DNA of 64,000 bases, taken from positions 3,670,413 to 3,734,412 of the forward strand of contig KB904821.1 in NCBI GenBank assembly GCA_000380225.1. The letters are read 5' to 3'. Both the position numbers and the translations under genes were made by a program. Positions 28,847 to 61,530 of this stretch are shown here, piece after piece. A model generated the notes under the pieces. The model had not been told where the DNA came from, did not search any database, and was given only the letters and a program-made list of their open reading frames with translations. Position 1 is the stretch's first letter; the number at the start of each line of letters is the position of its first letter. Source of the DNA: a filamentous cyanobacterium ESFC-1. GTDB taxonomy: Bacteria; Cyanobacteriota; Cyanobacteriia; Cyanobacteriales; Spirulinaceae.

Positions 28847-29587
28847 TTATACCGTGGGCAAATCGAACAACACTGTTGTCATATAGCGTTCGGCCCATTC
28901 GTCCCCAAATGCCTTTTCTAAGACGCGGCGGGTTTTGTCGTTTTGTTGCTGTTTTGTGCAATAATTACGCTGACCCTCCAGATAAACTGAGGATATTTCT
29001 GACCCTACAGGTTGCGTCTGGCTGGCGAGGGAACAATGAGCTTCTAAAAAACCGATAACGCGATGAAGAAAGCGCTGTTCCTCGTTAGGGTCAGCAGGAC
29101 GAATAAATAAGCAAAATTCTGAGAAAATATCCCCCCATTCCGGTAACTCTCGCGGTTGGGCAAAGTCCGGGGTGGGCAGTTGGGATAATGCTCCGTGATA
29201 ATCTGAGGATAAGGTTTTTTCGGCATTGGTGGGGGAAAGGTCGGCGATCGCGGCGCTAATTTGACCGCGGCCTCCGACTAAATCGCAGCCAAACATGGGC
29301 AGAGGATAGCCTTCACGGGGAAACATCACGCAATGCAAAATATCCAAGTTTTTGCCGACTTTCGCCAATTCTAGGTGCATTTTGCGAAATTCCCGGCTTT
29401 GATAGCAGCAGTTTTCGATTCGCAGTTTTTCCCCTTCTAAACGCCCTTCAATGTAGCCTAAATCTTCAGGGAGGAGGAAGGGTTCGAGATCGAGATGAGT
29501 TTGCCAAGTGGAGATAATGCCATGAGCGAGTTGTTGAATTAAAGGATGTAAATCGTCTTTTACCGAACTATAAGCTGTTTGTACCAT
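28847..29587 (-). CDS. pcyA: Phycocyanobilin:ferredoxin oxidoreductase
   Basis: Reduces biliverdin IXalpha by four electrons from ferredoxin to phycocyanobilin, the chromophore of phycobilisomes, Cph1-type phytochromes and most cyanobacteriochromes. The 246-residue product keeps the catalytic set Glu73 (FRKMHLE), His85 (DILHCVMFP) and Asp102 (FGCDLVGG). Their 12- and 17-residue spacing equals that of Glu76/His88/Asp105 in the Synechocystis enzyme. It is complete, starts at ATG 29587 and is divergent from tatA. It is relevant to the predicted bilin-binding GAF protein at 57238-57735. Confidence 0.97.
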
Positions 29588-55116: not shown

Positions 55117-57126
55117 TTAACTCGATTTTGCCGCGAGAACCCGATCCCAAAAGTAGCCATCTTCGACGGTGGTTTGACGAGAGGTAGGATCGTAGGCGAG
55201 GAGGTACGATCGCGCGATCGCGTCGAGGTCTTTGAGTTGCTGATATTCGGTTTCACCAATCTCGGTATCGGTAGAAAGGAGGATGACTTGCATCGAAGCG
55301 GCGGGGAAATAACGCTCGACGAGGTTATTTCTGTGAGAAGAATCCAGGCGACCGAGGGGGGTATCTATGGCAACGGGGAGGTGACGACCGGAAACGCGAG
55401 CCAGTCCCCACAAAAACGCGATCGCGAGGAGTTGTTTTTCCCCGGCAGACAGGCGGTGTTTGGGGACTCGTTGACCTTGGGGGTCATACAGGGACAGTCT
55501 AAAGGTTTCTGCGTCAATGGCGACACGATGTACTAAGTCGGATTTATGCAGTAAATAGCGGAAGCATTCTGTTACTTCGACTTCGAGTTTATTGAGCTTT
55601 TTAAGGGTGAGTTTTTCGCGAAAGAGTTTGAGGGTTTCTTGGACTTTGGCGGCGGATTTAATAACGTGTTCGTCGCTTTTACGGTCGATGTTTTGTTCGC
55701 TAAATTGTTTGAGTTCTTTTTTGGTTTGTTCGACAATTACGCCGAGTTTTTCGATGTTTTGTTGGCTTTTTTCTAGGGCAATTTGCGCGTCGTTACGGCG
55801 ATTTTGAGCGACTTTGACGGCTTTTTCGAGTTTTTGATATTCTTCGGGGGAAGCGGCACTTTGTAGTTGTCTTTCTGTGGCGCTCATTTCTTCTTCTAAG
55901 GCGGTGATTTGCTGTTGGAGGTCTTGCAGTTGATTCAGTTGATGGGGGAGGTCGCGATCGCGCAAATAAGTTAAGGTTTCAATGGCTTCTGGATCGGCTT
56001 GTAACCAAGGTTTGGCGTTGGGGTCGAGGTTGGCCGCGATCGCGCTTTTTTCGGCTTCTAAAAAGGCTTTGATTTTATTGATTTTGGCAGTTGTAATGGA
56101 AATGGTTTCGAGGTATTCTAGGAGGCGGCGATCGCGCTTTTCGATAACTTCTCTCGATGCGATCGCGGTCGCTCTTTCCTGCTCGTTTTCTGCTTGAATT
56201 TGGACTTGTGCTAGGAGGGAAGTAATCAGGGTTAAGGGTAAGATTCCGGCAGCAATTTCGCGCATTTGCTCGCGACAATCATCGATTTTTGTATTGATTT
56301 CTTGGACTTTGGTTTCAAGACGCGATCGCTCGGCGGCAATTTTTCCCCCTTCTGTAACAAAGCGGTCTTGGGCTTGATTGAAGTCTTTTTGAGCTTGTTT
56401 GAGTTGACTTTGTAGCGGTTTTATGCTTTCTTTGGCGGCTTCATATTCTATCTTTTTCGCTTCTAATTTCTGCTCGATTTCTTCTAATGTCGCTAAGTCT
56501 TCTGTACTCGCTAAAGCCTTGCGTTTGCGATTCACTAAAATGTCTAAATCATCAGCCAAACGTTCGGCTAATTCTAATCCCAGTAAAGATTGGATTGCGG
56601 TCACAACTTGCGAGGGGGGAGATTCTAATTCGGCTAATTCTTTGACCTGTTCCCCATCAAATAAAAACAAGTTAGAAATACCTAAAGGTAAAATATCTTC
56701 GATATACTCATCCCAGGTTTTAGTCAATGCACTATTCAGCCAAGTATCAATCGAAACTTCTAATTTATCCTTAGTATTCTTGTCACTTTTGAGCCAACTG
56801 CGACGAATGCGATATACCACATTTTTATTCTCATAAACGTGTTCAAAAGCCAACTCAACCGCCGTTTCTTCAACCCCTTTTACAGTCCGATTCACGCATT
56901 GGTTGAGAAAGTCGCTATAACTCAAATTTCCTCGCGTCGAACATTGCGCTCGTTGTCCGTAAAACGCCAAGCGAATCGCATCCATCATGGTTGTTTTACC
57001 CCCCCCATTCATCCCCCCCAAAAGCACAATCGGGCGCATTTCTCCTTTAGTTTCGGGGGATAGATTGACAACTTGACGGCCTAAGTAGGGGCCAAAGTTT
57101 TGTAGAACCAACTCGCGGAAAATCAT
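55117..57126 (-). CDS. dndD: DNA phosphorothioation protein DndD (SMC-like ATPase)
   Basis: DndD hydrolyses ATP and is thought to open or nick DNA during sulfur insertion by the Dnd complex. The 669-residue product has Walker A GGMNGGGKTTMMDAI (38-50), a long coiled coil (about 200-530) and the ABC signature LSAGEKQLLAIAFLWGL (559-575). Walker B lies at VAIDTPLGRLDSSHR (about 586-600). This is the RecN/SMC-like arrangement of the family, and FLFDGEQVKELAE (about 165) is a DndD block. It lies last in the minus-strand cluster dpt4-dndB-dndC-GAF-dndD, 111 bp after the GAF gene. Confidence 0.93.
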   Translation of the reverse strand: MIFRELVLQNFGPYLGRQVVNLSPETKGEMRPIVLLGGMNGGGKTTMMDAIRLAFYGQRAQCSTRGNLSYSDFLNQCVNRTVKGVEETAVELAFEHVYENKNVVYRIRRSWLKSDKNTKDKLEVSIDTWLNSALTKTWDEYIEDILPLGISNLFLFDGEQVKELAELESPPSQVVTAIQSLLGLELAERLADDLDILVNRKRKALASTEDLATLEEIEQKLEAKKIEYEAAKESIKPLQSQLKQAQKDFNQAQDRFVTEGGKIAAERSRLETKVQEINTKIDDCREQMREIAAGILPLTLITSLLAQVQIQAENEQERATAIASREVIEKRDRRLLEYLETISITTAKINKIKAFLEAEKSAIAANLDPNAKPWLQADPEAIETLTYLRDRDLPHQLNQLQDLQQQITALEEEMSATERQLQSAASPEEYQKLEKAVKVAQNRRNDAQIALEKSQQNIEKLGVIVEQTKKELKQFSEQNIDRKSDEHVIKSAAKVQETLKLFREKLTLKKLNKLEVEVTECFRYLLHKSDLVHRVAIDAETFRLSLYDPQGQRVPKHRLSAGEKQLLAIAFLWGLARVSGRHLPVAIDTPLGRLDSSHRNNLVERYFPAASMQVILLSTDTEIGETEYQQLKDLDAIARSYLLAYDPTSRQTTVEDGYFWDRVLAAKSS

Positions 57127-57237: not shown

Positions 57238-57735
57238 TTAAGAATTTTCCATAATAACTGGAGAAGTTGCGAGTAGATTTGCCCCTTTTTGCATGGTTTC
57301 GATATCCGTGGGTGACCAAGTTCGAGGGGTAGTGCAACTGTGAGCAATCAGAAGACCCCAGAGGCTTCTATGAGCTAATACCGGAACAACTAAGTTAGCA
57401 CGAACCTGTAACTCGCGCAAAAAGTCCCGATGACATTCTGCGATAGGTTCAGTTTCAATATCAGGAATTGTGCGGACACGGCCTTCTAAATATAACTGAG
57501 CATATTCTTGATTAAAACATTCATCGGGGCCGCTACTACCAAAAATAGAAAAGTCTGTATTACTCAAAGATTCAAAAGTAACTTGGCCTTCCCATTGTCG
57601 ATAAAAATAGTACAGTACAATCCGGTCAACTTGTAGGGATTTTTGGAGTTGTTGAACGGTACTTTGAATTAAGCTGTCTTTCTCTAGTTTACTCGAAAGT
57701 TGTCGGGTGAGTCGTCGCAAGCCAGGATCGGGCAT
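57238..57735 (-). CDS. Stand-alone GAF domain with DXCF cyanobacteriochrome motifs
   Basis: A 165-residue protein that is a single GAF domain. The sequence has the hallmarks of a bilin-binding DXCF cyanobacteriochrome. Asp71-Glu72-Cys73-Phe74 forms the DXCF motif, and Cys101-His102 forms the canonical chromophore-attachment motif in AECHRDFLRELQVRANLVVP. The two cysteines are 28 apart, as I recall for TePixJ (Cys494, Cys522). Typical flanks LYLEGRVRTIPDIE and LWGLLIAHSC...RTWSP are present. Such domains bind phycocyanobilin, often isomerised to phycoviolobilin, and sense blue/green light. No output domain is present. It sits between dndC and dndD on the same strand, 117 and 111 bp away. Photosensing and any link to DNA phosphorothioation are inference. 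Confidence 0.8.
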   Translation of the reverse strand: MPDPGLRRLTRQLSSKLEKDSLIQSTVQQLQKSLQVDRIVLYYFYRQWEGQVTFESLSNTDFSIFGSSGPDECFNQEYAQLYLEGRVRTIPDIETEPIAECHRDFLRELQVRANLVVPVLAHRSLWGLLIAHSCTTPRTWSPTDIETMQKGANLLATSPVIMENS

Positions 57736-57852: not shown

Positions 57853-59475
57853 TTAGGTATTTTGGGATGGAAATTTCAGATTTCCCCAACCCGGTGCGGT
57901 TTCGGTTGTTTTTTCAGCTTTTTGGGTTGGCTTGGTATCGGAGGATGGGGGGTTTTCTGCGAGGGTCAACTGCTTGATGGCTGCAATATCTCCCTCCTGG
58001 GCCGCTTCCTTGAGACCGCGTTTGAGGTGTGCGTTTGCGATCGCTTCCTCTTTCGACCAGGAACTAATTTCAAAACACTTCTCTAGGTCGTTAAATATAC
58101 CGCTTCGTCGCGATTTTGTAAAGTACTGCCGTTCTGTATCCAGCAGCCTTGACATCAGTTCTAAGTGCATGGTGTCATCCTGGCAGATATCTTCTAGGGT
58201 ACTCCATTCATCCATACCTAACAAGCTATCATCAGCCCCAGGCCGCGGGTCATCAAAGTCTTCCCCGGTTACTTCTTTATAAATCCGAGGCAGAGTATCT
58301 TCAAATTCGTGTTTTTCCTCTAGCCAAATCCTGCGAATTTCGCTTAATTCTTCCGTCGTAATTAAGGTAATATCACGCATTTCTAGCGGTGCAGTTTGAC
58401 GCACTTGGGTTTGCGCCGTAAGGACACGCCTTAGCCAATGTTCCCGCCAATATTTAGTATATGGCCCTGGGATGGGTTTAACCGTAAGTTTGCCGTCTAC
58501 ATTACGTTCAAAAAGTTCTACTCGTCCATAAATACGCCGGAAATCCCTTTTATCATGGTCATCTTGAATATCTAGTTCATTACGAATATCTAAAAGGGGT
58601 TGCATCCATTCTTTTTCTTCGTCATTTTGGATCATCGCCTCCATCGATTTATCTTGACTAACCATTGTGCAAACCCAACAACCAAATCGAGAACTTCCGC
58701 AACTCGGTGTCGAAGTATCTACCACTAAAGGACATTCATTATCAGCAGTAGCACCACGATACATTTTCATTAAATCTTTGTTACTATTTCCCCAGGGATT
58801 CTCCCACTGCATTAGATACAACCAAACTTCATCATTTTGCCAATCTTGAATTGGGCTATAAATCCATGAGTTGGGGAGACTAGAATTATTAGGATTTATG
58901 CGCTCTCGTAATTGTCCTGCATGGTATTTTTCTATAGTCGCTGCACGTTTAGAACTTTCTGCTTTACGAGTTCCCAACACAAGAATAGCCTCTCCATTAG
59001 AACGTGCTATACTCCGAATAAATTGGTTGGAAGGCTTGATTTTTAATCTTTCAGTACACCATCTAAATCTATTTCTAGGTGCAGGATATCCTTTGCCTAT
59101 TAGACAAACCCAAAATGTATCTTTAATTTCGGGACGTAATAAGTGAGCTTCTATAGGCATTTGCTGATCGTTAGCAGCCAGCTTAATTTGCTCTATAGAA
59201 TTACTTACCCAAGCAGATACAACAGGATTTTCAACTAAGGTATCAGTAGTAATTACATAAATTTTTTTATTTCGTTTAGTAACGGGTAATTCTGCAATTG
59301 CATACCAGATTAGTTGCAGTACAGCAGAACTATCTTTACCTCCACTCCAACCAATAACGAAGGGAACATTATCTTGTAAATATAACTCTTGTATTTCTAG
59401 AGTTAACTGTTTAACTTCTTCGACAAACTCTTCTGTTGTACGCTGTGGAAACAGTAAAGATGCTTGATTAATCAT
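57853..59475 (-). CDS. dndC: DNA phosphorothioation protein DndC (PAPS-reductase-like)
   Basis: DndC is an ATP-pyrophosphatase with a 4Fe-4S cluster that activates sulfur insertion into the DNA backbone. The 540-residue product has the PP-loop SGGKDS (44-49) and the Cys-rich block CPLVVDTSTPSCG and FGCWVCTMV (about 247-270), diagnostic of DndC. The segment KPIPGPYTKYWREHWLRR is also present. The C-terminal tail (about 500-540) is low complexity. Start ATG 59475 has AAAGG 11 bp upstream. It lies 96 bp after dndB. Confidence 0.95.
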   Translation of the reverse strand: MINQASLLFPQRTTEEFVEEVKQLTLEIQELYLQDNVPFVIGWSGGKDSSAVLQLIWYAIAELPVTKRNKKIYVITTDTLVENPVVSAWVSNSIEQIKLAANDQQMPIEAHLLRPEIKDTFWVCLIGKGYPAPRNRFRWCTERLKIKPSNQFIRSIARSNGEAILVLGTRKAESSKRAATIEKYHAGQLRERINPNNSSLPNSWIYSPIQDWQNDEVWLYLMQWENPWGNSNKDLMKMYRGATADNECPLVVDTSTPSCGSSRFGCWVCTMVSQDKSMEAMIQNDEEKEWMQPLLDIRNELDIQDDHDKRDFRRIYGRVELFERNVDGKLTVKPIPGPYTKYWREHWLRRVLTAQTQVRQTAPLEMRDITLITTEELSEIRRIWLEEKHEFEDTLPRIYKEVTGEDFDDPRPGADDSLLGMDEWSTLEDICQDDTMHLELMSRLLDTERQYFTKSRRSGIFNDLEKCFEISSWSKEEAIANAHLKRGLKEAAQEGDIAAIKQLTLAENPPSSDTKPTQKAEKTTETAPGWGNLKFPSQNT

Positions 59476-59571: not shown

Positions 59572-60822
59572 TCAAGCTTTATTAGATAAGTTAATTGCTG
59601 TCAATCTTTCCACTTCAGACAGAGCAATGTGAAACCCTCTTTTAATAGCAGCTACTTGGGCGACTATTCTCTTATTACCTTTATCGTCGTCAATTACAAT
59701 GCTATTTTGCCATAAATTAGAGCTACGTCGATAGTCTATACTTGCTAACGCTCGGATTAGTCTTTGCTGTTGTTCTTCACTAAAAATATTACCAAAGAAA
59801 ATTTGATGACCAACACGGCTAATAATCTGAAATCCTACAGTATTAAAATCAATTCTTTCTTGGCGCAAATTATATAAATCAAGATTTATAGTTTCTGATT
59901 TCGGTTTTAATAAAAGTTGCCAAGTATCATTGTTTTGAGCAAATTCCATGTAAAAAGTTTGTGCTTTTTCTAGCAACAAGCTACAGTCAGCTTCAGACTG
60001 ATTAGAGCGAGATTCAATAACTTGCTTTCGAGAAGAACCAAATAGAAATTCAGCCATTCCAACTCGAAGCTGATTCATAGTGAACAAGTAATTTGGATCT
60101 TTGCCCACTGTCCGTGAAATTTTATCAATTCTTTCATTAAATATAATCAAGTTTTTAGATACATCTCTAGTTAATTTAGATAAAGCATTACTAACGTCAA
60201 AGGCAGTAAGAAGTGCAGGAGGTATTGGTTTATTTTTGGCACAATCTGCAAAATCTTGATGAATTTGATCAATGTCATCTTCTTGTACAACTAATACAGT
60301 GACACTATCATTTTTTAATGAGGGTCTTTCAGAAATTGCTTTTTCAATAGCTTTAAGACGATGTTGTCCATCAGTTACATAAAGCTCTAAATCGCTAGGA
60401 ATCACAGCATAACCAAACTGAACAGCTCCTGTACCAAACGCGAATACTTTGATAGCAGTTTTAGCATTAAAAATCAAAGGTGGTAAGATATACTGCTGTG
60501 TATCTAAAAGATATTTGGCAATTTCATCTACATGCTGACGCATTAAAGGACGATTGACAAAACTTTCTGCATTAGTCTTATTATCTTTAGGTTTAGCACT
60601 ATTTAGCTTTGCCATTTCTAGCAGTAAATTAAAAGGTAAAGAAAAGGTCATGTGTTTTCTCTGACCTTGTTCATAAATATGACACAAAAAGACTCTAGCT
60701 CCAGAGGTGGCAGCATCGGCGTATGCCTGACTTTGAGCTTCTTGTTGACTCGCCATTGAAACGACATTAGCACTAGAAGGCTGTCCGTTTGTACTGGACA
60801 TCGTATTGATTGTAGAAAACAT
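59572..60822 (-). CDS. dndB: DNA sulfur modification protein DndB (DGQHR domain)
   Basis: DndB is a DNA-binding regulator of the dnd operon in characterised systems and affects modification frequency. The 416-residue product has the family signature DGQHRLKAIEKAI (about 149-161), LLEMAKLNSAKPKDNKTNAESFVNR near the N-terminus, and NRPLMRQHVDEIAKYL. The middle has LTRDVSKNLIIFNER. The start is ATG 60822, about 80 bp downstream of a good minus-strand promoter (60911-60940). An earlier position for the regulator in the operon is usual. Confidence 0.92.
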   Translation of the reverse strand: MFSTINTMSSTNGQPSSANVVSMASQQEAQSQAYADAATSGARVFLCHIYEQGQRKHMTFSLPFNLLLEMAKLNSAKPKDNKTNAESFVNRPLMRQHVDEIAKYLLDTQQYILPPLIFNAKTAIKVFAFGTGAVQFGYAVIPSDLELYVTDGQHRLKAIEKAISERPSLKNDSVTVLVVQEDDIDQIHQDFADCAKNKPIPPALLTAFDVSNALSKLTRDVSKNLIIFNERIDKISRTVGKDPNYLFTMNQLRVGMAEFLFGSSRKQVIESRSNQSEADCSLLLEKAQTFYMEFAQNNDTWQLLLKPKSETINLDLYNLRQERIDFNTVGFQIISRVGHQIFFGNIFSEEQQQRLIRALASIDYRRSSNLWQNSIVIDDDKGNKRIVAQVAAIKRGFHIALSEVERLTAINLSNKA

Positions 60823-61062: not shown

Positions 61063-61530
61063 TTACAAAAACCGACTCAAATCGAACTCCTCGTCTATCC
61101 GTTCATCCTTGAAGCGTTCGTGGGCTAAGATGAGCAGGAGACGCTCCGTATAGTCTACCGCACCGCGCAACTCCTCTCGTAGCCATTCTAAGCCCCCATT
61201 GGCGTATTCCTCGAAAATCGCGACGCGCTGTTCCTCTGCATTGGGGTTGAAAGGGGAGAGAATCTTCGTGTCGGGGATTTCAGAAATCGCGATTAATTTA
61301 ATCAGAGGATCGTAGCCGCGAGCGAGAAACACCTCTATACTGATAGGGGCGGGTTCTTTGGTGGAAATAGCTCCCAAGGGCGATCGCCTCTGGTGATGAT
61401 TTCCCACCGCAGCCGCAAACGCGATCGCGTCAGCATAAGTTTGAAAAGGGCCAGTTGTTCCCTTGGCTTCAATTAAGGTTTGTACCAAGTCGGCTTTATC
61501 TTTCGCTATCCGAATTCGATTTGCACCCAT
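61063..61530 (-). CDS. DNA phosphorothioation-associated protein 4
   Basis: A 155-residue protein of the dnd-associated protein 4 family, found beside dnd genes. It reads NRIRIAKDKADLVQTLIEAK, GPFQTYADAIAFAAAVGNHH and a C-terminal GLEWLREELRGAVDYTERLLLIL. The N-terminal part is basic and helical, so DNA binding is possible; its activity is unknown. It is first in the minus-strand cluster, 240 bp before dndB, and divergent from the methyltransferase-like gene at 61605. It is not DndE, which is shorter and lacks these blocks. Confidence 0.8.
   Translation of the reverse strand: MGANRIRIAKDKADLVQTLIEAKGTTGPFQTYADAIAFAAAVGNHHQRRSPLGAISTKEPAPISIEVFLARGYDPLIKLIAISEIPDTKILSPFNPNAEEQRVAIFEEYANGGLEWLREELRGAVDYTERLLLILAHERFKDERIDEEFDLSRFL

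Follow-up and report, generated by a model that had tools for sequence, protein, structure and literature searches.

A predicted one-domain DXCF cyanobacteriochrome between dndC and dndD of the filamentous cyanobacterium ESFC-1 belongs to a stand-alone photosensor family

The GAF gene and its dnd neighbours

The window, a stretch of 64,000 nt of contig KB904821.1 from the filamentous cyanobacterium ESFC-1, carries a cluster of DNA phosphorothioation (dnd) genes in which dndC and dndD are separated by a small GAF gene. The features of this locus, and a gene for chromophore supply found elsewhere in the window, are as follows:

55117..57126, minus strand: dndD, downstream neighbour of the GAF gene across a 111 bp gap (TIGR03185, 686 bits)
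57238..57735, minus strand: predicted stand-alone DXCF cyanobacteriochrome GAF protein, 165 aa (ORF, Pfam GAF, fold, tree)
57430..57435, minus strand: C101-H102 codons, canonical bilin Cys and His (sequence; family conservation)
57514-57516, minus strand: F74 codon, directly after D71-E72-C73
57517..57525, minus strand: D71-E72-C73 codons, including the second Cys (sequence; family conservation)
57853..59475, minus strand: dndC, upstream neighbour across a 117 bp gap (TIGR03183, 710 bits)
59572..60822, minus strand: DndB-family (DGQHR) protein (PF14072, 251 bits; TIGR03233, 98.5 bits)
61063..61530, minus strand: DNA phosphorothioation-associated protein 4, dnd_assoc_4 (TIGR04062, 195 bits)
28862..29521, minus strand: ferredoxin-dependent bilin reductase of the pcyA type, chromophore supply (PF05996, 252 bits; G000:C1:3699274-3699933)

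The GAF ORF starts with ATG and encodes a single GAF domain (Pfam score 71 bits, cut-off 22.4), and all of the flanking dnd genes share its orientation, in agreement with the initial annotation of the locus. The sequence motifs described there were also confirmed. In an alignment to TePixJ chain 3vv4, D71-E-C73-F matches DPCF without gaps, and the 28 residues from C73 to C101 of the Cys101-His102 pair are likewise ungapped. The flanking blocks GRVRTIPDIE, VRANLVVP and LWGLLIAH are all present. The pcyA gene that had been noted for this genome proved to lie within the window itself. The GC content of the GAF gene (0.42) falls between those of dndC (0.41) and dndD (0.46), so base composition is uninformative as to a recent acquisition.

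The DndB-family protein scores far from the dndB equivalog model TIGR03233 (98.5 bits, below the cut-off of 328), and dndE is absent from the cluster in the window. The genome has a sole match to DndE, G000:C1:4562721-4563050 (locus L266), which lies about 834 kb from the dnd cluster. The DndD protein scores higher with the PADLOC model for PbeC (939 bits) than with those for DndD (804 bits), and is well above the cut-off of TIGR03185.

The GAF gene is linked to the Dnd system (dndBCD(E)) by genomic position only. Its protein matches no Dnd or PADLOC model, its single NCBIfam match is to the bacteriophytochrome BphP (29.2 bits, far under the cut-off of that model), and it is missing from the other dnd clusters examined. 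GAF proteins receive no mention in the literature on the origin of dnd and on the dnd machinery. Scans of a 7.1 kb region gave 24 promoter-like sites (14.5 expected) and 7 terminator-like sites (7.2 expected), with nothing decisive at the GAF gene in either case.

Fold and photosensor class

Searches of solved structures with the window protein returned phytochrome-superfamily GAF domains only, with cyanobacteriochromes leading. The best relatives in the PDB by sequence, using both single-sequence and profile searches, were 6oap, miRFP670nano, RcaE and TePixJ, all of them cyanobacteriochrome GAFs or proteins derived from these. An AlphaFold2 model that used 23 GTDB orthologs in addition to the window protein (mean pLDDT 82.6, pTM 0.79) superimposes on cyanobacteriochrome crystal structures with Z scores of 24 to 21 and an rmsd of 1.6–3.0 over about 150 residues, and Foldseek gave the same picture. 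In a phylogenetic tree the protein falls in a branch with TePixJ, RcaE and 6oap (support 97/89), and most GAFs of the same genome that do not have the Cys fall outside this branch.

Profile search, predicted structure and tree, all of them named in the initial annotation, place the protein among the bilin-binding cyanobacteriochromes. Its identification as a stand-alone DXCF cyanobacteriochrome and predicted bilin binder is thus strongly supported by sequence and structural model, from which we infer that it would bind a bilin. The proposed light sensor tied to dnd can accordingly be divided into two parts: the DXCF photosensor stands (sequence, fold, tree, and both Cys conserved in about 60 orthologs), and the tie to phosphorothioation is not supported.

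A close parallel with the same DXCF and CH motifs and the same 28-residue spacing is the blue/green DXCF domain of TePixJ (4glq, 3vv4, 6p58), which matches the window model with a Z score of 22.4 and an rmsd of 1.9 at about 30% identity. The TePixJ GAF forms one domain within a methyl-accepting chemotaxis protein, whereas the window GAF is the whole protein, and the residues around the second Cys also differ, those of the window GAF family reading GSTGPDxCFNxEY. The nearest relative outside the family (support 96/84, 43% identity) is a DXCF GAF in the same genome (G000:C1:1573002-1573487). Unlike the window GAF, it is part of a large multidomain protein of 1473 aa, in which the GAF is followed by a linker helix.

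Oscil6304_2705 of Oscillatoria acuminata PCC 6304 is presumably the characterised protein nearest to the window GAF. Asp-71, Cys-73 and His-102 were reportedly mutated in the study of that protein, and these residue numbers are those of the window GAF; if this holds, Oscil6304_2705 is very probably a member of the same family, and an ortholog. PMC10296107, citing Sato et al. 2019, describes it as a two-Cys cyanobacteriochrome that switches between blue and orange states and in doing so loses its Cys linkage at the B-C bridge. Oscil6304_2705 is not known to lie near dnd genes.

A family of stand-alone DXCF cyanobacteriochromes

Searching 59 relatives revealed stand-alone homologs in 22 other genomes, with identities of 46–69%, while GAFs of larger proteins reached about 44% or less. 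A scan of GTDB gave 27 loci at 54–65% identity, although some records appear there twice under different names. By profile search, 57 of 386 cyanobacterial genomes carry a family member, one per genome, with scores of at least 206 bits and always in an open frame of 165–213 aa. The next-best matches (176 bits or less) are in larger proteins, mostly of 400 to more than 2000 aa (up to 2200). The family forms one clade with 100/100 support in a maximum-likelihood tree built from 92 rows. Within this clade the window protein groups with L243, L245, L164 and L262 (support 89/97), whose genomes all belong to the same taxonomic family as the window genome; this fits vertical descent of the gene as judged from sequence. 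Plasmid carriage was considered and rejected, just distant relatives (29–40% identity) being found on plasmids. On these sequence comparisons, the family is conserved, chromosomal, single-copy, sharply bounded and one-domain.

D71, F74 and C101 are invariant in the 60 family rows, C73 is kept in 58 of them (97%), and H102 is conserved at 98%. Family-specific conservation is seen near the second Cys (G66, S67, G69, N75 and Y78) and in a YYFY block (Y43, Y45). The family proteins end at the point where output-linked GAFs run on into a helix leading toward the output domain. Two orthologs (L166 and L188) have Ser at the position of the second Cys (DESF and DDSF), and in a third (L187) CY replaces CH. 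From their sequences, these three would be natural variants suited to probing a two-Cys photocycle.

The same substitutions, together with the missing output domain, could be taken to mean that the window GAF no longer binds bilin and has a ligand-binding or structural role instead. The invariance of Cys101 and the near-invariance of the second Cys argue against this, as do the closest solved relatives, which are bilin binders, and the pcyA-type gene carried by the genome, and we regard such a loss as very unlikely. Somewhat less remote, although still unlikely, is a bilin-binding protein that stores, scavenges or quenches chromophore and does not signal. Its single domain, the lack of a C-terminal linker helix and the lack of a conserved genetic partner would suit that role. 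However, the DXCF Cys is conserved, and it is needed for a two-Cys photocycle and not for simple binding; the strong family-specific conservation of the residues around it is also contrary to a storage or quenching role.

The dndC-dndD junction in other genomes

If the photosensor were part of the phosphorothioation pathway, as the initial annotation proposed, it would sense light or redox state, share a transcript with dndC and dndD, and tune or bind their products. Read-through transcription is possible, given the common strand and the short gaps (117 and 111 bp) on either side. Among 292 genomes of the phylum, 73 have a dndC scoring above the NCBI cut-off, as do 46 of the 59 relatives. None of the 97 other dndC loci carries the family GAF gene. 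At 69 of these loci dndD comes next in the same orientation (median gap 161 bp); the stretch fetched at the remaining 28 contains no dndD.

Unrelated ORFs of at least 100 aa are present in 14 of the 69 gaps, and include Y1_Tnp (IS200-type transposases), Uma2, PfkB, PDDEXK_3 and YkuD. The junction therefore tolerates insertions, with the GAF gene being one kind of insert among several. IS200-like single-transposase genes of about 134–179 aa occur on the same strand in the gaps of L070, L114, L115, L120, L122, L123 and L285, two of them confirmed as Y1_Tnp by Pfam and the rest by similar sequence.

Some dndC genes have other features of their own. Three genomes of one genus have a dndC that overlaps tail-to-tail by 4 bp with a gene for a protein of 554–566 aa with a GAF and a receiver-like domain (L069:7043-8707, minus strand; L074:6987-8687, minus strand; L126:3763-5427, plus strand), and the GAFs of these proteins have CP where CH is expected. 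Two relatives from the same family as the window genome carry damaged dndC genes: a fragment with one stop, evidently a remnant (G293:C2:2248456-2248710), and a frame interrupted near position 343 of the profile (G294:C14:103185-104335).

Among the 50 genomes with both genes, GAF and dndC are adjacent in the window genome only (822 bp between match starts), which amounts to one of 98 dndC loci. The next-nearest pair is 21 kb apart (G172), and the remaining pairs are separated by more than 140 kb or lie on separate contigs. Adjacency to dnd genes in a single strain, which the initial annotation had named as evidence against its proposal, is thus what was found among the sampled genomes. Orthologs in the same taxonomic family sit elsewhere, although several of those genomes carry dndC. 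The near-complete genomes G027, G060, G083, G170 and G215 contain the GAF gene without a dndC over the cut-off, and no fusion was seen.

Co-occurrence of the two genes gives some weak, unadjusted support to a link, in one genome set. In the order-level set, 38 genomes have both genes, one has the GAF gene only, 34 have dndC only and 10 have neither (Fisher p = 0.008, a value that ignores phylogeny); in the set of relatives the corresponding value is p = 0.22, again ignoring phylogeny. The genomes of that order without dndC are mostly small (2.8–4.9 Mb) and the GAF-bearing genomes mostly larger, making genome size a likely confounder of the co-occurrence.

Neighbourhood of the family

Flanking DNA was read at 49 + 14 family loci, commonly 5–7 kb on each side and less at contig ends. 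None of these loci has dnd genes nearby. A conserved alternative operon was also looked for, and no shared gene arrangement was found for the family, recurrent neighbours being limited to close relatives. The Microcoleus and Nostoc groups, for example, each have their own recurring local neighbours beside the family gene. Upstream and downstream DNA shows no conserved regulatory sequence relative to the orthologs, local alignment scores lying within the range of shuffled sequence.

The proposed coupling to dnd is thus opposed from three sides: the other dndC loci are without the GAF gene, the family members are located elsewhere, and the junction accepts unrelated inserts. A light-regulated dnd operon is rejected on this lack of recurrence across the dndC and family loci examined, and we consider a general coupling of sensor and dnd genes highly improbable. 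The least probable reading is a lineage-specific capture of the photosensor into the dnd transcription unit, where it would be co-expressed with, or bound to, DndC and DndD and place phosphorothioation under light control. As the sample included one species of the genus, the adjacency may be a fixed feature of that genus. Judged from the sequences compared, the position of the GAF gene among dnd genes is most likely a chance neighbourhood, found in one genome among those sampled.

Proposed mechanism

We consider it probable that the window protein is a member of a one-domain DXCF sensor family that signals in trans, and that its gene came into the dndC-dndD junction by chance insertion. In DXCF cyanobacteriochromes the canonical Cys binds the bilin at C3-1, and the second Cys, bonded to C10 in the 15Z state that absorbs blue light, is released upon isomerisation to 15E (PMC11284453, PMC10296107). 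By analogy, Cys101 would attach a phycocyanobilin-derived bilin, and Cys73 would form a second, reversible thioether at C10 to give a blue-absorbing dark state, which light would turn into an orange, teal or green state of longer wavelength. The sequence is compatible with either a green (phycoviolobilin) or an orange (phycocyanobilin) product and does not tell them apart.

Since the protein has neither an output domain nor a linker helix, it most likely acts as a diffusible two-Cys blue-light sensor that passes its signal in trans to a separate partner. The gene would have been inserted or rearranged into an insertion-tolerant junction and would stand outside the phosphorothioation machinery. 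In this scheme we infer the photocycle colour, the trans signalling and the lack of a role in the dnd pathway.

Co-orientation inside a defence operon is weak evidence of function, given that the dndC-dndD junction repeatedly takes in unrelated genes, and the striking link to dnd falls away because the adjacency is confined to a single genome among those sampled. The finding that remains is a delimited, single-copy, one-domain photosensor family present across many cyanobacteria. Its two photochemical Cys are strongly conserved, yet output domain and conserved gene partner are absent, which raises the testable question of how a widespread one-domain photosensor without an output domain relays its signal.
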